Shown here piece by piece: positions 395-9,251 of a DNA stretch of 64,000 bases. Below the pieces are notes generated by a model. It saw only the letters and a program-made list of their open reading frames with translations. It had not been told where the DNA came from and did not search any database. The position numbers and the translations under genes are program-made. Origin of the DNA: Mayamaea pseudoterrestris (Eukaryota; Bacillariophyta; Bacillariophyceae; Sellaphorales; Sellaphoraceae); contig BROI01000010.1 of the NCBI GenBank assembly GCA_027923505.1, positions 868,001 to 932,000 of the forward strand, given 5' to 3'. Each line of letters starts with the position of its first letter. Position 1 is the first letter of the stretch.

Positions 395-3300
395 ATGAAG
401 AGTTTCTTGCTCGTTCTGCTGCTCTCGACAGTGACAGCGACTACAGTCGATCGACAAGATGTTGGTGTCGAGGCATCCGCTGCAATCCAAGGACTGCTGC
501 AGCAGGTTCGCTTCAAAGTCGCAAGTCTACTGGACAATGGAGCCAAAAGAGAAGCGATGAATGACAATGAAGGTCATGCGCAGGCGCTTATTGAATGGGT
601 TCGATCCAAAACCAAGGCGAATGTTTATGAGCATCTAGAAGCTCGGCCATCTTCGTCAGTGCAGCAGCAATATGCATTGTATGCAACAACTACCATTCCA
701 GCGAATACATTATTGTTTGAAATTCCGCAGGATCTCGTCATGACCCCGACTCGTATTGAGATTGATGACCGCGTTCAAGTGGAGTGGAATGATGATCATG
801 AATACAACTACGGTCACGTTACGCGCGATCATGGCGATACTATGGATGTTCACTTTGACGATGATTCCGTTCATTCACTTGAACGAAGCTTGATTGAACA
901 TGAAGCTTTTCCCGTCAATTGCGGAACCATTCAGCGACTAGTCCAAGAGATTCTTCTCGGCGACTCGAGCAAGTTTGCTCCTTATGTCAACTATTTAAAG
1001 AATCAACCACGTGGCCAGTTACCGGCTGATTGGAGCGAAGCAGGCCAGGATTTATTAAAAATGCTGATGGGATATGAAAGTAACAAAGAATTCGCTCTGC
1101 TTCCGCCGGAATCTTCCTTTGACTGGCTCAAAGAAGACTGGCGAGTCCGTTGCGGTCGACGCGGGGACGATGTTTCTAGTCTAGCATACTACACTTACGT
1201 GCAGCGAAGCTCTGACCAGGTTCTTGTTCCAGTACTCGATATGCTATTGCACTCAAATGCTCCTGATGAGCTGAATACGCGGACTGGACCTATTCGCAAT
1301 GGACGACGGCCAGTCAAGGTATTTTCCTCGCGCGAGATACAAGCAGGTGAAGCTTTGTACGCATCCTACAATCAATGCGCGGATTGCCAAAACAAAAACC
1401 ATATTGGCACGCCAGAACTGCTGCGTGAGCATGGCTTTGTGGAGGATTATCCGCAGCGTTGGATCTTGAGCGACGAAAATGTGGTATCCTTTGACCTGGT
1501 GCCTGAGACGATTGTTGGTATGGATGGAGCTACAATGAAGCAGATCTCGGTAAAATGGATTGATAAGCGGCCATCGCGAAAAAGTTTTGCCTATATGAAA
1601 AATCAGCTACAGCGACTGGCCGACTTTTGCGAAACGGAGCTTGTGTCGTTGGATCCGTCCATTCCTCCGCAAGAACTTGACGTGATTCTGCAATATTTGG
1701 ACGCCACCACGACGGCACTCTCACTTGCTATTAATGCATCGCCATCATCCCATACGTCTAGTATAGATTGTCGCGACACGAATACTTGCGATTTGGATCG
1801 CTTCGACCGATACGAGTCACTTGTTCCGAAGCAAGAGGTTTGGGGCGACGAGCGGCCAGCGACGTGCAACTCTAAGCGGGAGTATGTATTTAACACATGG
1901 GAAACAATTGACGAAGTCAATTCGCGCTATCAAGGAGTTACTTTCTCGGTGAATAATCAAATCAATGACATGTGCTTTGACCTTGACAACGTCGTGCAAA
2001 TATGCTCGAGCTATCGTCCCCACTATCACGAAATGATGGTTCACTTTACGGCGCGCTATCTTGATGAAGTCAAGCGAGTCGTCTTTGTCGGGGGCGGCGA
2101 TTCCATGCTACTCCATGAAATTGTCAAGTATCCGACCCTCGAAAAGGTGGTTGGCCTTGAACTGGATCAGCAAGTGACTCGAAGCTCTTTCAAGTACTTT
2201 GGAACACAGCCGCATTGGGACAATCCAAAGGTGGAGTGGTGGTTTGGAGACGCCACCAAAAGTTTACTCACGCTGCCAAAGGAATACTTTGGAAGCTTTG
2301 ATATGGTGCTAGTCGATTTATCCGAGACAGTCATGGCATTGTCGGTAACGGATGAACTTGACGTGATGGAGGCGCTCGCCTTGCTCATTAAACCAAATGG
2401 CATTCTCGTCAAGAACGAGTATATGTACATGCTCAGTCAAGCCGAGATTTTCAAACATACACTGCACGTTCACTGGTACCACGTTCCTGTTGTTTGTTCC
2501 CAGTCTCTCATTCTTGGAAGCAACGGCATCGACTTCATGCGAGGCAAGTACGTTGATCATGGAATTGACCATTTGTACGAACTTCTTGACGACAATAGTC
2601 TTCGGTATTCCATCGTACGCGATTACGAAAAGAATGAGACAGCACGACAGAACCAATGCAAGGACTATAATCCTATCCAAGAGACGCAGCTCCGAAGTCC
2701 AGGTATCTTAATGCTTGTTGACGTAGAAGGCTCAAGGATCGGCGGCGGCGATCTTAATATGCTTCAAGCTACAATTGTGAATGCCCTGTCAAAAGCCGGT
2801 CTATCGGTTGTCCCGAGCGTGGAGCCTTGGCAAGATGACGATAATGGTCTCGTGGCCATTTTGCTACGCGAAGGATATGTTGTCGCCCGAACGTGGGCGT
2901 CGGAAAGTGTTTGTTCCTTGGACATTCACCTATGGAGTAGTCTCGAGAAGCAAGAACCTGCAAAACAGAATATAATCACCGCTTTTGGCAGCAATCTTTC
3001 TTCTGCATATCGCATTGTTGCTGGTGGCATGTTTGGTGTTGGCTCTTGGAAAATCGACCAAGCTAAGAACGGTCCACATTTAAATGAACTTTGTACACCG
3101 CCGATAACCACGACCACACAACCACATAACTCGACAATGGATCCAATGGTCGTCGAAGCCGCTGTAAAGGAAAGCTTTGCAGCAATTCGTGAGAGCGATA
3201 TCAAGGTAGCAGTTCTCTGTCCGTACGAGGACTGCGGAGTCGTCTTTTCGCTCAAGCAGATTTCTATCGTGGGAGAAATCCTAGAACTACGAGCCTGCAA

Positions 3301-4297
3301 TAATGTCACCGACGGCGCCGACTTTGCCAACGAATCATCGGATATTCTTTTTGCTTGTGAGAAGGAGCTTCGACAGACTCTTGCCAATGCATCGGGAAAC
3401 AAAATTCGTGCCATTGTTATCGATCAACATGCGCCATATGCCCTTGGCCAAATTGTTCTCAAATTGTTTCGAAGCTCGATAAAGAACAAGCGATGGCTTT
3501 CGAGAGATATCCTCGTCGTCGCTCCGATTCTTGTGGCAAAGGATGCATGGAAAAAAGTGTTTGTCGAGACGTTTCGCCGTGATATTTATCTGGAGGAACC
3601 AGTATTCAACGCTGACGTTGTGTTTACTGACCCCACAAGCACGCTCACCATGGCGATTGCGTCCACTGGAAATACTTCTTTCTCTGCAACGCTTATTAAC
3701 ATGGCGGAGCAGATGGAGAATACCACAGGTGTCTTGTCCGAAATCAAGAGTCTTCGAGGTGGCGAATTCATCTTTCAGGATGATTTTATACCGGACCGTA
3801 ACTTTGTCCACGCAGACTATGATCGAGCTGATCCTTACAAACAATGGACGTCGCAGGAGCCCTTGGGCTTTCAGACTGTGTTTCAGCTCGAGCTATTGCC
3901 AAACGCCCGCAGCAAGTTGTCGGCTAGTCGCATAAGTGACATGACCATGGCGGCACTCGCGACTGCGAACCTGGAAAGCAGTGACGAGTACAACTGGAAG
4001 CAATGGGACCTTGCTTCATCGAGCAAGTCTGCCGATGGCGTATCCGCTGGTGATGGTTCTGTCATTACGGTCCTGTGGTCAGAAGGCAGTCTGGTGGTGG
4101 TTTGGGACGGCAAGATCCACGTTGACGTCAATCTCTTTATGTATGAGGAGGATTTTGACTTTGCCGATGCGTTTGTTGCGTCCTTCACAAACATGAAGAC
4201 TGTTTTACGCGACGAGCAACCTAGAGGCAAGGGTCGAGTGGTAAATTTTATGTTTGACCTACCAGATGCAGAGGAACAACCACGTTGGATGGCTTAA
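395..4297 (+). CDS. Secreted SET-Tudor-aminopropyltransferase-AdoMetDC-like fusion (long-chain polyamine family)
   Basis: Intronless, 1300 residues, starting at the ATG at 395, which begins a clear signal peptide (MKSFLLVLLLSTVTATT). In order: an LSMT-type SET domain from about residue 90, with a Tudor-like barrel inserted at about 125-175; SET core motifs DMLLHSN (282-288) and YASYNQC (322-328); a spermidine-synthase-like domain at about 500-720 with the nucleotide loop GGGD (566-569) and VDLSE (640-644) where the catalytic Asp region lies; an AdoMet-decarboxylase-like module at about 770-880; an unassigned region; and a second decarboxylase-like module at about 1220-1290. The Ser-His of the pyruvoyl self-cleavage motif (ESH) is absent from both: EGY at 826-828 and EGS at 1230-1232. 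Diatom proteins of this build, with inactive decarboxylase and a Tudor domain, have been proposed to modify silaffin lysines with methylated aminopropyl chains. Substrate and activity here are inference. Confidence 0.9.
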   Translation: MKSFLLVLLLSTVTATTVDRQDVGVEASAAIQGLLQQVRFKVASLLDNGAKREAMNDNEGHAQALIEWVRSKTKANVYEHLEARPSSSVQQQYALYATTTIPANTLLFEIPQDLVMTPTRIEIDDRVQVEWNDDHEYNYGHVTRDHGDTMDVHFDDDSVHSLERSLIEHEAFPVNCGTIQRLVQEILLGDSSKFAPYVNYLKNQPRGQLPADWSEAGQDLLKMLMGYESNKEFALLPPESSFDWLKEDWRVRCGRRGDDVSSLAYYTYVQRSSDQVLVPVLDMLLHSNAPDELNTRTGPIRNGRRPVKVFSSREIQAGEALYASYNQCADCQNKNHIGTPELLREHGFVEDYPQRWILSDENVVSFDLVPETIVGMDGATMKQISVKWIDKRPSRKSFAYMKNQLQRLADFCETELVSLDPSIPPQELDVILQYLDATTTALSLAINASPSSHTSSIDCRDTNTCDLDRFDRYESLVPKQEVWGDERPATCNSKREYVFNTWETIDEVNSRYQGVTFSVNNQINDMCFDLDNVVQICSSYRPHYHEMMVHFTARYLDEVKRVVFVGGGDSMLLHEIVKYPTLEKVVGLELDQQVTRSSFKYFGTQPHWDNPKVEWWFGDATKSLLTLPKEYFGSFDMVLVDLSETVMALSVTDELDVMEALALLIKPNGILVKNEYMYMLSQAEIFKHTLHVHWYHVPVVCSQSLILGSNGIDFMRGKYVDHGIDHLYELLDDNSLRYSIVRDYEKNETARQNQCKDYNPIQETQLRSPGILMLVDVEGSRIGGGDLNMLQATIVNALSKAGLSVVPSVEPWQDDDNGLVAILLREGYVVARTWASESVCSLDIHLWSSLEKQEPAKQNIITAFGSNLSSAYRIVAGGMFGVGSWKIDQAKNGPHLNELCTPPITTTTQPHNSTMDPMVVEAAVKESFAAIRESDIKVAVLCPYEDCGVVFSLKQISIVGEILELRACNNVTDGADFANESSDILFACEKELRQTLANASGNKIRAIVIDQHAPYALGQIVLKLFRSSIKNKRWLSRDILVVAPILVAKDAWKKVFVETFRRDIYLEEPVFNADVVFTDPTSTLTMAIASTGNTSFSATLINMAEQMENTTGVLSEIKSLRGGEFIFQDDFIPDRNFVHADYDRADPYKQWTSQEPLGFQTVFQLELLPNARSKLSASRISDMTMAALATANLESSDEYNWKQWDLASSSKSADGVSAGDGSVITVLWSEGSLVVVWDGKIHVDVNLFMYEEDFDFADAFVASFTNMKTVLRDEQPRGKGRVVNFMFDLPDAEEQPRWMA

Positions 4298-4392: not shown

Positions 4393-7141
4393 TTATAGAG
4401 GTTGCCGTCGCCAAGATGCAGATCGTCCGCTACTGTCAGGCGTGGCGGGTTCTGTTCCATAAATGTGTTGATGAAAATCTTCGCATTGCAACGCGGGAAG
4501 CGGAAAATGGGCATGTTCCATCAGATGAAGGCCGTCAGCGTCTGGACTAAATGCTGCCAAAGCCAGCCCGGATGTGGGTGGCGAAAGGAAGAAAGTTGAC
4601 TGGTAGTTACCGGCCCGTGTCTCTGGCGAGTAGAGTGGCAGGCTATATAAATCTTGTTGTGACGCCGCTGAAGAGGTCACTTTTGCAAGTGATCCTTGCC
4701 TTCGGAGAGGATGGACGACTTGATATCTAGCTCGAGCATCGTCGTGGCCAGTATGATTATAATCTGGATGTTGGCTCCACGGTGGCGTTGTTGGTCCAAG
4801 GTAGTGTTGAGACGCCGAGGCTGGTGGATGCCCATATTGACTATTGTATTCCGCAAAATATCCATCCGTCGTGTACCTCGGTGTCAGGCAGAGCTGGTCT
4901 GGAATGGTAAGCTTACTAATCTTGGGTGAGCTGTATGGTGGCCGAAGAGGAAGAGGCGACTGCGATGCAGGTCCAGACTTCGCTTTCTTGCTGGGTCGGG
5001 CGATTAATGAGGTGTCAGAAGGATGCGTCGGATACCAATGAGCATCGTGATAGCCGGAGGGTGGATAAGGAGCGCTCTCAAAACTAGTGGTAGCCGCATA
5101 CGGCAGTCTAAATGGATGCACATGGTCATGAAGTGAATTGGCGCGAGCCGAACTCGTCGCAGACGATCCGATTGATGAGCGGTGGTCGTCCACGTACCCA
5201 CCCTTGGCAGGAGACGACTCGCGCTTCGTTGCAACAGGAGTAGTAGACGCTTTGCGCTCGACGGCATTAGGTCGAATGAGAAAGACGTTGATGGCGCCGC
5301 AGACTTTTCCAGCAGACCGATTGTACGCAAGCCGACTGTTCAAAAACATTTGGTAGCGCCGAATACCGGCCTGCATGCCTTGCTCCGGATCAGGCACTTC
5401 CAAATTTGTCCCAACAGGAGACGTAATTCCAATTATATTATCCGTTCCGTATAATTCCAGACTTGTAATGTCGGAATAAGAAACGTACAAGTGCCTGCGA
5501 GCGTTCTCAGCACCGCTGACAAAAGCAGAAACGAGTTTCGGGCGTTCAGAAGAGGTGTCTATTGGATACTGAAACTGCTTGGACTGACGCGTAATATATG
5601 CCAGCATGTCATTCAAGTAGCGCTCTTCTTCCCGAAGCAAGTCGACTTCGCTCTGCAAATTTTCGACTTTGCCGGACACGCTGCCATCGTCAGTGTTATT
5701 TTCCGTCGTGGCTCGTATCGGCCCAGCCAGCCCGAGTCCATTCTTTGGCGGGCGCAAATTCCAAGCGATAAAGTTCTTTCCTTCCTTGGTAATTAACCCA
5801 ATTCCTTCCAGTACATTGGTAATATCGTAAATGCGCCGCTTTGGAACATTCAAATCCGCCGCGGCTTGGTTCAAATCGACTCTACGTCCCTGCGAGCAGC
5901 GCAACAATTGAACAAACCGCTGTGTCAAGAGTCCAAGCGACGAGTTTGCCCCGCCTGGTGTTCCAACTGAATGCAATGGACTAGAGCGATATGTTTGCGT
6001 GGATTGTTGTGTCAAATAGGAGTCCTGCGCCGGTGACGAATACAATGCACTCGAAGCGGATGGCGTCATGTCTGTTTCGGAAGACAGCGTCCGTGGAGGG
6101 GTTGGAACAATGCCAAGAGTAAGTAGTGTCATTGTAGGTGAATGGTGATGTGAGTGATCGCCAATGGAATTGCGAAAGGGAGACGATGATGGAGAATGGA
6201 CATGTGTATTGATAGGGTCGTCATGGAACGTTGGGTCGGAGGCGTTGCCGTCATGAACCAAAGATTCATCAACATAATGGTGAATGTCGGAATCACATTC
6301 AGTATTGTTTGTTTGCGTACATGTTTCATAAGGAGAATGAACCAGCAGGTTTTCGCATTTCGGGTTGACATAGTGTACCGTTGGAGTGAGAATGAAGCAT
6401 TTGAGAATGTTATTGGATCGTTTTTGGCGTCGAAAGGTTGATTGTGGAGGTGAGTCATCGGAATCATTACCAGCAGCATACATTACAGCGTAGAGAATGC
6501 GAGATAAGGAGGAATATGTAGAGAAGATTGAGTCGAATGCGAAAATCATTTGCATTTGCTTGCACAACGACAATGCGGACCACGGTTCGTGAACGCCAGC
6601 ACCAAAACCGCAGTTGAACGACATTTAATCGTTGCGTATTCGTTGCACCTCTCTCAATGATCCAACAGAGTCTCTTGCACCTCTTTCACGTACCTGGATT
6701 GGGACGATGTGCGAGTTGATGCTGCTGCGACCAAGACGATGGTGTTCGAAGCGGCGTCATTCCGATCTTGCGAGTGACATCAGGAGTAACACTCTGCGCC
6801 ATTAAATAAGCTGACGAATTGTGATGATAAGCATAGTGACGATGAACTGGTAGAGGAGGATGATGCATGTAATAGTGACGCTGATCGTGATGTTGCTGCA
6901 CCCTGTCGCCTCGATACATAAAAGAGGACTTGTATTCACACGGATGATGCATACTACCGGTAGTACATGGAAAGGAAGGATGACGATGCTGAGGAGCATT
7001 GTATGATTGCAAAGATTGGCGGCTCGCGGACGACAATGGCATGTCGGGAGCAGCTTGCTCTTCGTCCAGTCGTTCGTCTGCCCCTGCAAATGCAAGACTT
7101 TGCTCATCCTCCTTTGCCAAAGATTCCTTACAAGGCGACAT
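4393..7141 (-). CDS. E2F-family transcription factor
   Basis: Two exons, complement(4393..6071, 6694..7141), 708 residues, ATG at 7141. The junction joins AATCCAG|GTACGT to GAAACAG|ACATG in phase and gives a continuous protein. Residues 1-150 are rich in His, Gln and Pro. The winged-helix DNA-binding domain is at about 193-253 with the E2F/DP signature [17 protein letters not shown] short leucine-rich coiled coil for dimerising with DP follows (about 280-315), then a marked-box-like region (about 340-420) and a long, low-complexity, His/Ser/Pro-rich tail that may carry the activation region. Family role: G1/S transcription. There is one DNA-binding domain, so this is a canonical rather than an atypical E2F7/8 type. 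It converges on the polyamine fusion gene, 95 nt away. The intron (622 nt) is far longer than any other found here. Confidence 0.9.
6072..6693 (-). other. 622-nt E2F intron with a ~486-nt AG-free zone
   Basis: Donor GTACGT at 6693-6688 and acceptor CAG ending at 6072, read on the minus strand. Between 6073 and 6558 the plus strand has no CT dinucleotide, so the transcript has no AG until the acceptor. The first ~130 nt of the intron do contain AGs, which places the likely branch point upstream of 6559. The stretch also stays open in the downstream reading frame from 6624. Confidence 0.8.
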
Positions 7142-7534: not shown

Positions 7535-9251
7535 TTAGCGCACCCGAGCCTTTTTCTTGGCAGGCTCCATTGCTGCCGCCACAGCGGCCGCCACAGCCGA
7601 CGCCGCAGGTATAGCTACTTGCTTTTCGTCAATTAAACACTCCAGCAACTCATATTCCTCCACGTCTTGTGTCTGCAACAACAAGCTTGCATACTGATGG
7701 TGGGATTCCTCGGGAAACACGCAGTGGAATAGACGAGCAGGTTTGCCTGTGCGCTCGGAAACAAAGCCTGGAGCGCCAGCCTTGTCAATGTCTGTTTCGC
7801 TGATCCAACCAACCACCGTTCCTGTCGATAAAATGGATCGATTAGAAAACGAGAAAAAGGCAAGATATTACTCGAAACATGTAGCAGAATAGACAGTCGA
7901 TGCACAAAATCGCATACGCACCAACTTGCTCCACCGTCACAGTTCGACGGGCCGAAACCCTGTGCGTCGAAGTCCAAAACACTTTACGACCAAGGTACTC
8001 ATTGTCGGTTGTCCGCCATGGCGGATCTCCGCTAGAGCTTTGAGCCAAGGCGGCTTCGTACACTTCCAGAGCCTTTTTCTTGCTCGTATACGTGTCTCCT
8101 TCAGGTGATGTGATTTTAAACTTGTTATTCCCCGTCACTACGGCTGACCATCCTTCTCCCAAGCCAATAGCGGCTGCCGTCATTCGCGGATCTTTGCCTG
8201 TCGTCTCGCGGGGACGAATCAAGCGCTCATCGACGCCAGACTGCTTCGTCCGATCAGAGTAGTGCACTTGATAGACAAATCCCTGACTCGCCGAGTGGGT
8301 GGTGCGTCGTAGAACAGTCGCCTCCCACCATTCATCATTGTACAAAACTTGGACCTTGTCACCCTTTTGAAACAGTGGCTGTCGTGCCAGCAAGTGGCCG
8401 CCCGAGAAGTCAAACGGAGTCGACGATTCCGGATCCCACGACTTGGCCGCCTCCATGGCTGCCCCATGGTGGTAAAACATGTCGCAGTCCAGTGCTGGAT
8501 CACCAGCATAGATACGATCAACAATGCATGAATATGACTTGTGTGTATTTGACATGGTTGCAGTTTTCATCGGTGGTGACGGCAGCGTTACACTTTGAAA
8601 CTCCGTCGCGCTTTGCTTGCTCTCGTCGTTCGAGGTCATTTCTGCACCTCCGTCAGCATCAGCCTTGCCATTGGCAGCAAGTTGCTCGTGCTTCTTCTGT
8701 TCACTATCTTGGTCCATTGCAGCTTCTCCATGTTTAGTTGCCAGCGCTACAGGCGAGTGCGAAACTACCGGTCGTTGCGCTCGTGTTTCATCAAAGCCAT
8801 CCTTCGGTTCGCTTGCTTGCTTTTCCATTTGCTGTTCTCCTCCCCTGAATGCAGAGTGAGAATCGTCGCCAGCCTGTGATGCAACTACTGATGCTGACGC
8901 TGTCTCCGCTGACGCTTTCATAAACGGTTGCTGGTTTGGGCCTTGCACATAGACGGCTGTAGAATTGCCACTTTGGGCGTCAGCAGCATGTCCGATACGA
9001 CCCTCCTCCATAGTAGCCGCAACGGCTTGACTACAATCGACTGCAACTGCTTCTGAAAACTCCTTTTCAGCTTGGTAAGTTTCCGTTGCTGTCAAAGGAG
9101 CAAAGACTCGCTCAAGCGTCCGAACAACTCTCCAGCCGGGTGGATATCCAAGCGCCTCGGCCAACTGACACGCCTGTTTGTCGGTAACTGTAGGCTTTGG
9201 ATCCCATAAAGCCTTTCCGATGTAGTCGAGAACTGTTTGATGAGATGCCAT
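7535..9251 (-). CDS. Tudor/MBD-like putative chromatin protein
   Basis: Two exons, complement(7535..7821, 7922..9251), 538 residues; the 100-nt intron joins VEQVG to TVVGW in phase. The N-terminal ~55 residues form a compact, possibly helical block. Residues ~60-240 are low complexity, rich in Ala, Glu, Gln and Ser. Next come a Tudor/Agenet-like segment (KGDKVQVLYNDEWWEATVLR), then a block with the GW..TGNNKFKITSPEG..Y.SKKKALEVY pattern of methyl-CpG-binding-like folds, then a segment around SARRTVTVEQVGTVVGWISE. The C-terminus is an Ala-rich run and a basic KKKARVR tail that could be a nuclear signal. A role in reading chromatin marks is inferred from the domains only. It is divergent from TRM13, with 197 nt between the starts. 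Confidence 0.75.

Follow-up and report, generated by a model that had tools for sequence, protein, structure and literature searches.

A single open reading frame (395..4297; codons 395–4294, stop codon 4295–4297) in a 64,000-nucleotide stretch of contig BROI01000010.1 (positions 868,001 to 932,000, hereafter the window) encodes a protein of 1300 residues in which a SET domain, an aminopropyltransferase (APT) and a dead module resembling S-adenosylmethionine decarboxylase (AdoMetDC) are joined. The gene is real and well-bounded, and it belongs to a kind described in 2011; the kind is not new, some of the residue-level detail is. The side of the APT that binds the donor, decarboxylated S-adenosylmethionine (dcAdoMet), is largely retained, the acceptor side is altered, the decarboxylase residues are lost and the genome carries silicon transporters. 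The reading preferred here, with a probability of about 45%, is that of a dead-AdoMetDC-type diatom fusion whose APT would act on an unusual amine acceptor, whose SET domain would methylate and whose AdoMetDC-like module (module A) would be a structural or docking part. Coordinates are those of the window and lie on the forward strand (+) unless marked otherwise.

Architecture of the Gene and its Paralogue

The union of SET and APT in one protein, stated in a preliminary description of the window, is borne out by Pfam matches of 25.4 and 68.3 bits, respectively, within the one frame. The N-terminus is hydrophobic (residues ~1–16, 395..442; 10-residue hydropathy maximum of 2.87, at residue 4) and likely represents a signal peptide, and the protein is probably secreted or made in the secretory path. 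The same hydropathy scan gave a more hydrophobic stretch (3.12) near residue 1039.

A search of the genome (30.6 Mb, 41 contigs) in which the best candidates were scored found one full-length paralogue, on contig C16, with 1361 residues, 39% identity and the same domain order. Between the two proteins conservation is highest in the APT (52% identity), followed by the C-terminal region B (46% over residues 1131–1300), module A (42%), SET-C (41%) and the middle region X (27% over residues 896–1130). Aligned cysteines are conserved at 13 of 16 positions, as against 39% of all aligned positions (for comparison, Trp 13/22, Pro 30/49 and Gly 36/62), a pattern that would suit a disulfide-bonded lumenal protein.

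The Aminopropyltransferase Domain

The APT domain spans residues 505–760 (1907..2674) and is recognized by the Pfam family PF01564 (Spermine_synth) at residues 543–684 (E 8e-19), by spermidine synthases of the PDB (from E 7.7e-14) and by hhalign (P 2.4e-23, probability 99.5). Its alignment columns were counted against 24 reference sequences, namely 21 from a set of APT loci, two of this genome and one Plasmodium structure. The residues Gln535 (Gln in 20 of the 24 references), Tyr544-His545-Glu546, GGGD 566–569, Glu589, Asp591 and Asp619 are retained in both paralogues, as is the catalytic Asp641. The dcAdoMet motifs and the catalytic Asp are thus in place, with Ser570 as the departure.

The acceptor side differs. 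In the DxxDP gate loop (2315..2326) Asp641 is kept, the second Asp is replaced by Glu644 (Asp in 22/24 references and in the paralogue) and the Pro position holds Thr645 in both paralogues (Pro in 22/24). Further on, both proteins have Asn674, probably in place of a Gln (19/24, with three gaps), and Val700, probably in place of an aromatic residue (Tyr or Phe in 20/24, with four gaps). As judged from these columns, the donor side of the APT is kept except for Ser570 and the acceptor side is rebuilt. A putative enzyme of the lumen that modifies an uncommon amine, for instance a silaffin lysine, would fit this pattern, and so would a loss of activity.

Compared with spermidine synthase and bacterial SpeE, the window protein shares a sequence match over the domain, most dcAdoMet motifs and the catalytic Asp, but it is fused and carries GGGDS, Thr645, probably Asn674 and Val700 and, in the window copy, Glu644. 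Since it departs from the usual acceptor site (DxxDP gate, Gln and aromatic residue), the protein is not classed as a spermidine synthase.

The AdoMetDC-Like Module and the C-Terminal Regions

Module A (residues 771–868, 2705..2998) gave a Pfam AdoMet_dc match of 16.2 bits at residues 786–868, and the paralogue reached 22.3 bits; both values fall short of the cut-off (25 bits). A profile of 16 sequences was built from 12 of 19 loci found, to which two AdoMetDC copies from the genome under study and two proteins of solved structure were added; the seven more distant loci had been dropped by the E-value limit. Against it module A scored 17.5 bits and its counterpart in the paralogue 12.8 bits, and in neither case did any of 500 shuffled sequences score as high.

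The residues needed for decarboxylation are lost from module A, to judge by the alignment. The preliminary description had reported that the self-cleavage Ser-His is replaced by EGY at residues 826–828 (2870..2878). EGY does stand where intact copies have ESH and the positions are indeed replaced, but self-cleavage takes place at a different Ser, that of the GVS motif. The position of the cleavage Ser holds Val820 (or Leu819 under another gap placement), that of the catalytic His holds Tyr828 and that of the catalytic Cys holds Trp847. Because all three positions are occupied by other residues, no pyruvoyl group is expected. Module A aligns with class 1B AdoMetDC (SpeH, Thermotoga maritima) over ~95 residues but differs from it in each of these self-cleavage positions.

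The preliminary description spoke of AdoMetDC-like modules in the plural. The middle region X (residues 905–1125, 3107..3769) and the C-terminal region B (residues 1165–1300, 3887..4294), the latter well conserved in the paralogue, had no Pfam match at E <= 1. Region X matched the AdoMetDC profile no better than shuffled sequences (294 and 120 of 500 scored as high for the window protein and the paralogue, respectively). Region B scored -0.2 bits, with 25 of 500 shuffles as high (paralogue, 2.5 bits and 0/500), and by hhalign P 0.022 with a probability of 2%. Given the scores of module A and region B, a single dead AdoMetDC module is supported and a second one is not. A second AdoMetDC module at the C-terminus and an additional APT within region X had both been suspected by eye; neither is supported by the profile, shuffle and hhalign scores. 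Structure prediction of residues 765–1300 without an alignment gave a pLDDT (predicted local distance difference test) of 37.8.

AdoMetDC of class 1B forms dimers, and in trypanosomatids inactive AdoMetDC paralogues activate their partners. By analogy with both, module A might pair with an active AdoMetDC and regulate it, the whole protein being a regulatory subunit, and the genome does hold the dead kind together with AdoMetDC copies with intact motifs. The most conserved part of the protein, however, is the APT and not module A (52% vs. 42% identity), and this role appears quite improbable.

The SET Domain and the Tudor-Like Insert

The SET domain (residues 93–326, 671..1372) matches Pfam PF00856 above the cut-off of 22.4 bits, as does that of the paralogue (23.6 bits), and is split by a Tudor-like insert. 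The SYN motif and the GFVE end are retained in both proteins. The Asn of the NH motif is missing from both, the usual Asn-His being replaced by Leu285-His286 (1247..1252) in the window protein and by Ser-His in the paralogue; it is present in all four other SET loci that were read, which were picked, out of 35 SET matches in the genome, from those spanning the whole profile. Searches of the PDB with the SET parts of both paralogues gave no match. Elsewhere in the genome, two equal-scoring SET matches ~1 kb apart (contig C2:451833-452255 and 452847-453269) are apparently a tandem duplicate.

A Tudor barrel embedded in the SET domain had been proposed. An insert is there (residues 116–172, 740..910), delimited by a gap in the pairwise alignment with the paralogue, but its likeness to a Tudor barrel is one of sequence pattern and is not confirmed: it had no Pfam match above the cut-off (best TOBE_2, 13.7 bits, cut-off 21; in the paralogue Agenet, 15.5 bits, cut-off 27), and Foldseek found no match at E <= 0.001 for its low-confidence model (pLDDT 57.7, aligned with one other window protein), the Tudor domain of 53BP1 appearing at E 1.4 and not as the top match. 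A genome search with the insert recovered itself alone at E <= 1. In the window protein the insert sits within the SET domain, whereas the paralogue carries it in its C-terminal region, so that it was either gained twice or moved, the pieces being too short to decide. The product of another window gene (7842-9251, minus strand) has a weak Agenet-like stretch at residues 297–348 (16 bits, cut-off 27) that is 31% identical to the insert.

The changes in the three domains raise the question of a pseudoenzyme, that is, a protein in which none of the three activities is left and which acts only as a scaffold binding methylated or polyamine-bearing silica proteins. This would account for the loss of the AdoMetDC residues, for the absence of the SET Asn from both paralogues and its presence in the other SET loci, and for the changes at Ser570, in the gate loop and in the acceptor residues of the APT. 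It is nevertheless unlikely, as GGGD, Glu589, Asp619 and Asp641 are retained in both paralogues and their APT domains are 52% identical.

Related Loci and Silicon Transporters in the Genome

Besides the window gene, the genome contains nine Spermine_synth stretches and three AdoMet_dc stretches. A recognizable AdoMetDC adjoins an APT at three loci, two on contig C12 and one on contig C24. In both C12 loci the two domains share one open frame; on C24 they occupy two neighboring frames, for which reason a fusion is assumed there. Weak SET matches, below the cut-off of 22.4 bits, were found downstream in the C24 APT frame (16.1 bits) and in a further frame at one C12 locus (19.5 bits), whereas the second C12 locus had no such match in the downstream frame that was read; by eye the SET NH motif is present in the C12 frame and none is visible in the C24 frame. 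GVS, ESH and TCG are all present in the AdoMetDC copies of C24 and of one C12 locus. The third copy, an AdoMetDC-APT fusion on C12 (L027:2780-4318, minus strand), has GVT for GVS and is without the Cys, and its decarboxylase is possibly on its way to inactivity, as far as these motifs can tell.

With module A dead, dcAdoMet would have to be made by other proteins, most naturally by those of the loci whose AdoMetDC motifs are intact. The same loci bear on another explanation, in which free long-chain polyamines, and not proteins, are the substrate, extended by the APT and N-methylated by the SET domain, while the other AdoMetDC-APT proteins provide the dcAdoMet. The presence of three loci with AdoMetDC beside APT is in keeping with it, and passages of two reviews give related fusions with an active AdoMetDC such a role (PMC12029483, PMC3820600). 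On the other hand, those three loci would already serve free polyamines and the acceptor side of the window protein is unlike that of ordinary polyamine-using APTs, which makes this explanation doubtful.

The silicon-transporter family PF03842 has 10 matches in the genome, six of them long (best E 2e-197), and a single match, below the cut-off, in 14 control genomes. With these transporters and the AdoMetDC/APT fusions the genome is that of a silicifier or its kin and very probably of a diatom, on the evidence of its gene content. The preliminary description had taken the fusion gene as a pointer to the type of organism; a silicifier or its kin is upheld by the 10 matches, and diatom is a strong inference and not proof because silicon transporters are also reported from coccolithophores (PMC4742977).

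Two further features of these families were observed. Three of the six long PF03842 domains stand in a row within one frame of 1445 residues (contig C1:2970661-2974680), and on contig C3 two near-identical standalone APT genes (L028 and L029) lie ~438 kb apart, flanking open frames included, which points either to duplication of the segment in recent times or to an artefact of the assembly.

Relation to Known Diatom Fusions

Michael (2011, FEBS Lett 585:2627) is reported to have described diatom AdoMetDC-APT-SET fusions, including a subclass with a dead AdoMetDC and, in one case, a Tudor domain. The window protein agrees with that subclass in that SET, APT and a decarboxylase that no longer functions share one polypeptide, and its hydrophobic N-terminus may correspond to the signal peptide of the subclass; all three domains were found here together, with the decarboxylase dead. 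What is added here is a pair of paralogues that differ in the position of the Tudor-like insert, together with an analysis of the acceptor-side residues.

That such fusions place aminopropyl chains on silaffins, as the preliminary description had it, is a published proposal, to judge by passages of reviews that cite Michael (2011). The citing passages concern AdoMetDC-APT fusions, histone-methyltransferase fusions or silaffin aminopropyl transfer (PMC6356823, PMC12029483, PMC3820600, PMC4483651), and in PMC4483651 the proposal is paraphrased. For diatom-specific SET protein methyltransferases, wall proteins or long-chain polyamines have been put forward as targets (Nemoto, 2020, according to passages of papers citing it); the window protein differs from what is related of them in its altered NH motif. 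Excerpts from more recent work mention 32 APT fusions in Nitzschia inconspicua, with the remark that diatom APT fusions still need study (PMC12803844, 2025), one AdoMetDC-APT fusion upregulated under added aluminium, for which a link with more silicification is suggested (PMC12533330), and 12 SET-domain genes of Skeletonema inhibited by salinity, with lower silicon content (PMC11554505). The main text of a silicon-shift transcriptome study (PMC5501833) contains no words beginning with "spermi" and no "methyltransferase" and hence gives no support. Among the matches listed in the literature search, the passages seen contained no experiment testing the proposed aminopropyl transfer to silaffin lysines.

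The enzymes that place polyamine units on silaffin lysines are an open question of silica biology, and a passage of a 2012 review states that the details of this attachment are just beginning to emerge (PMC3820600). The window gene would be a good candidate for the modification of silaffin lysines, not a new system.

Proposed Function

Silaffins carry KXXK pairs in which one lysine bears aminopropyl units and the other is dimethylated, according to passages of PMC3820600 and PMC4557024. SET and APT together could make both types of mark, and the window protein would therefore fit a lumenal maker of dimethyl and aminopropyl marks. In the preferred reading the APT would bind dcAdoMet that the cell's own AdoMetDC-APT proteins provide, and would add aminopropyl units to lysines of KXXK proteins (e.g., silaffins) or to polyamines already attached there, the SET domain would methylate adjacent lysines or the newly added amines, and module A with the surrounding regions would be a structural or docking part with no decarboxylase role. 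A more specific and rather speculative version is that an APT fold has turned into a secretory lysine aminopropyltransferase, whose own SET domain would add the alternating dimethyl groups on KXXK proteins, with the dead AdoMetDC and the C-terminal regions possibly docking the substrate.

Several observations weigh against the preferred reading. Ser570, common to both paralogues, turns GGGDG into GGGDS within the donor motif (reference Gly 19/24, Cys 4/24). The changed acceptor site and Glu644 could equally mean lost activity, as could the lost Asn of the SET NH motif; the residue changes as a whole would agree as well with an inactive protein as with the silaffin-lysine proposal. The columns past ~673 align less easily, which makes the assignments of Asn674 and Val700 weaker than those in the gate loop. 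As to the AdoMetDC likeness of module A, hhalign gave P 3.8e-4 yet a probability of only 36%, and a genome-wide search with PF02675 (E <= 0.001) listed three other places and not module A. The claimed signal peptide stands as a hydrophobic N-terminus, judged by hydropathy alone, and in the paralogue the N-terminal maximum is 1.52. Since longer polyamines were not seen on the lysines of tpSil3, as a passage of PMC4557024 reports, long chains need not be the product of the window protein. Finally, the two neighbors scanned with Pfam are not silica genes.

With one full-length paralogue found, knocking out both genes seems feasible, and the changed residues lend themselves to point tests.

Neighboring Genes and Relatives in Other Collections

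The gene next to the fusion (4393-6624, minus strand) encodes an E2F transcription factor, recognized above the respective cut-offs by E2F_TDP (84.6 bits) and by E2F_CC-MB (46.7 bits). Prokaryotes, viruses and plasmids were scanned for relatives of the whole fusion protein. The viral contigs, scanned by two short patterns, gave none; viral scans with frames of this genome gave 0 loci for AdoMetDC and one locus for APT, where the match covers 28 residues that do not belong to the APT domain. The GTDB genomes, scanned by two short patterns, contained one locus, matching residues 504–606 only. Two phage records matched within residues 481–760, and 13 plasmid records were found; among the five matches listed for plasmids, all lie at residues 530–764.

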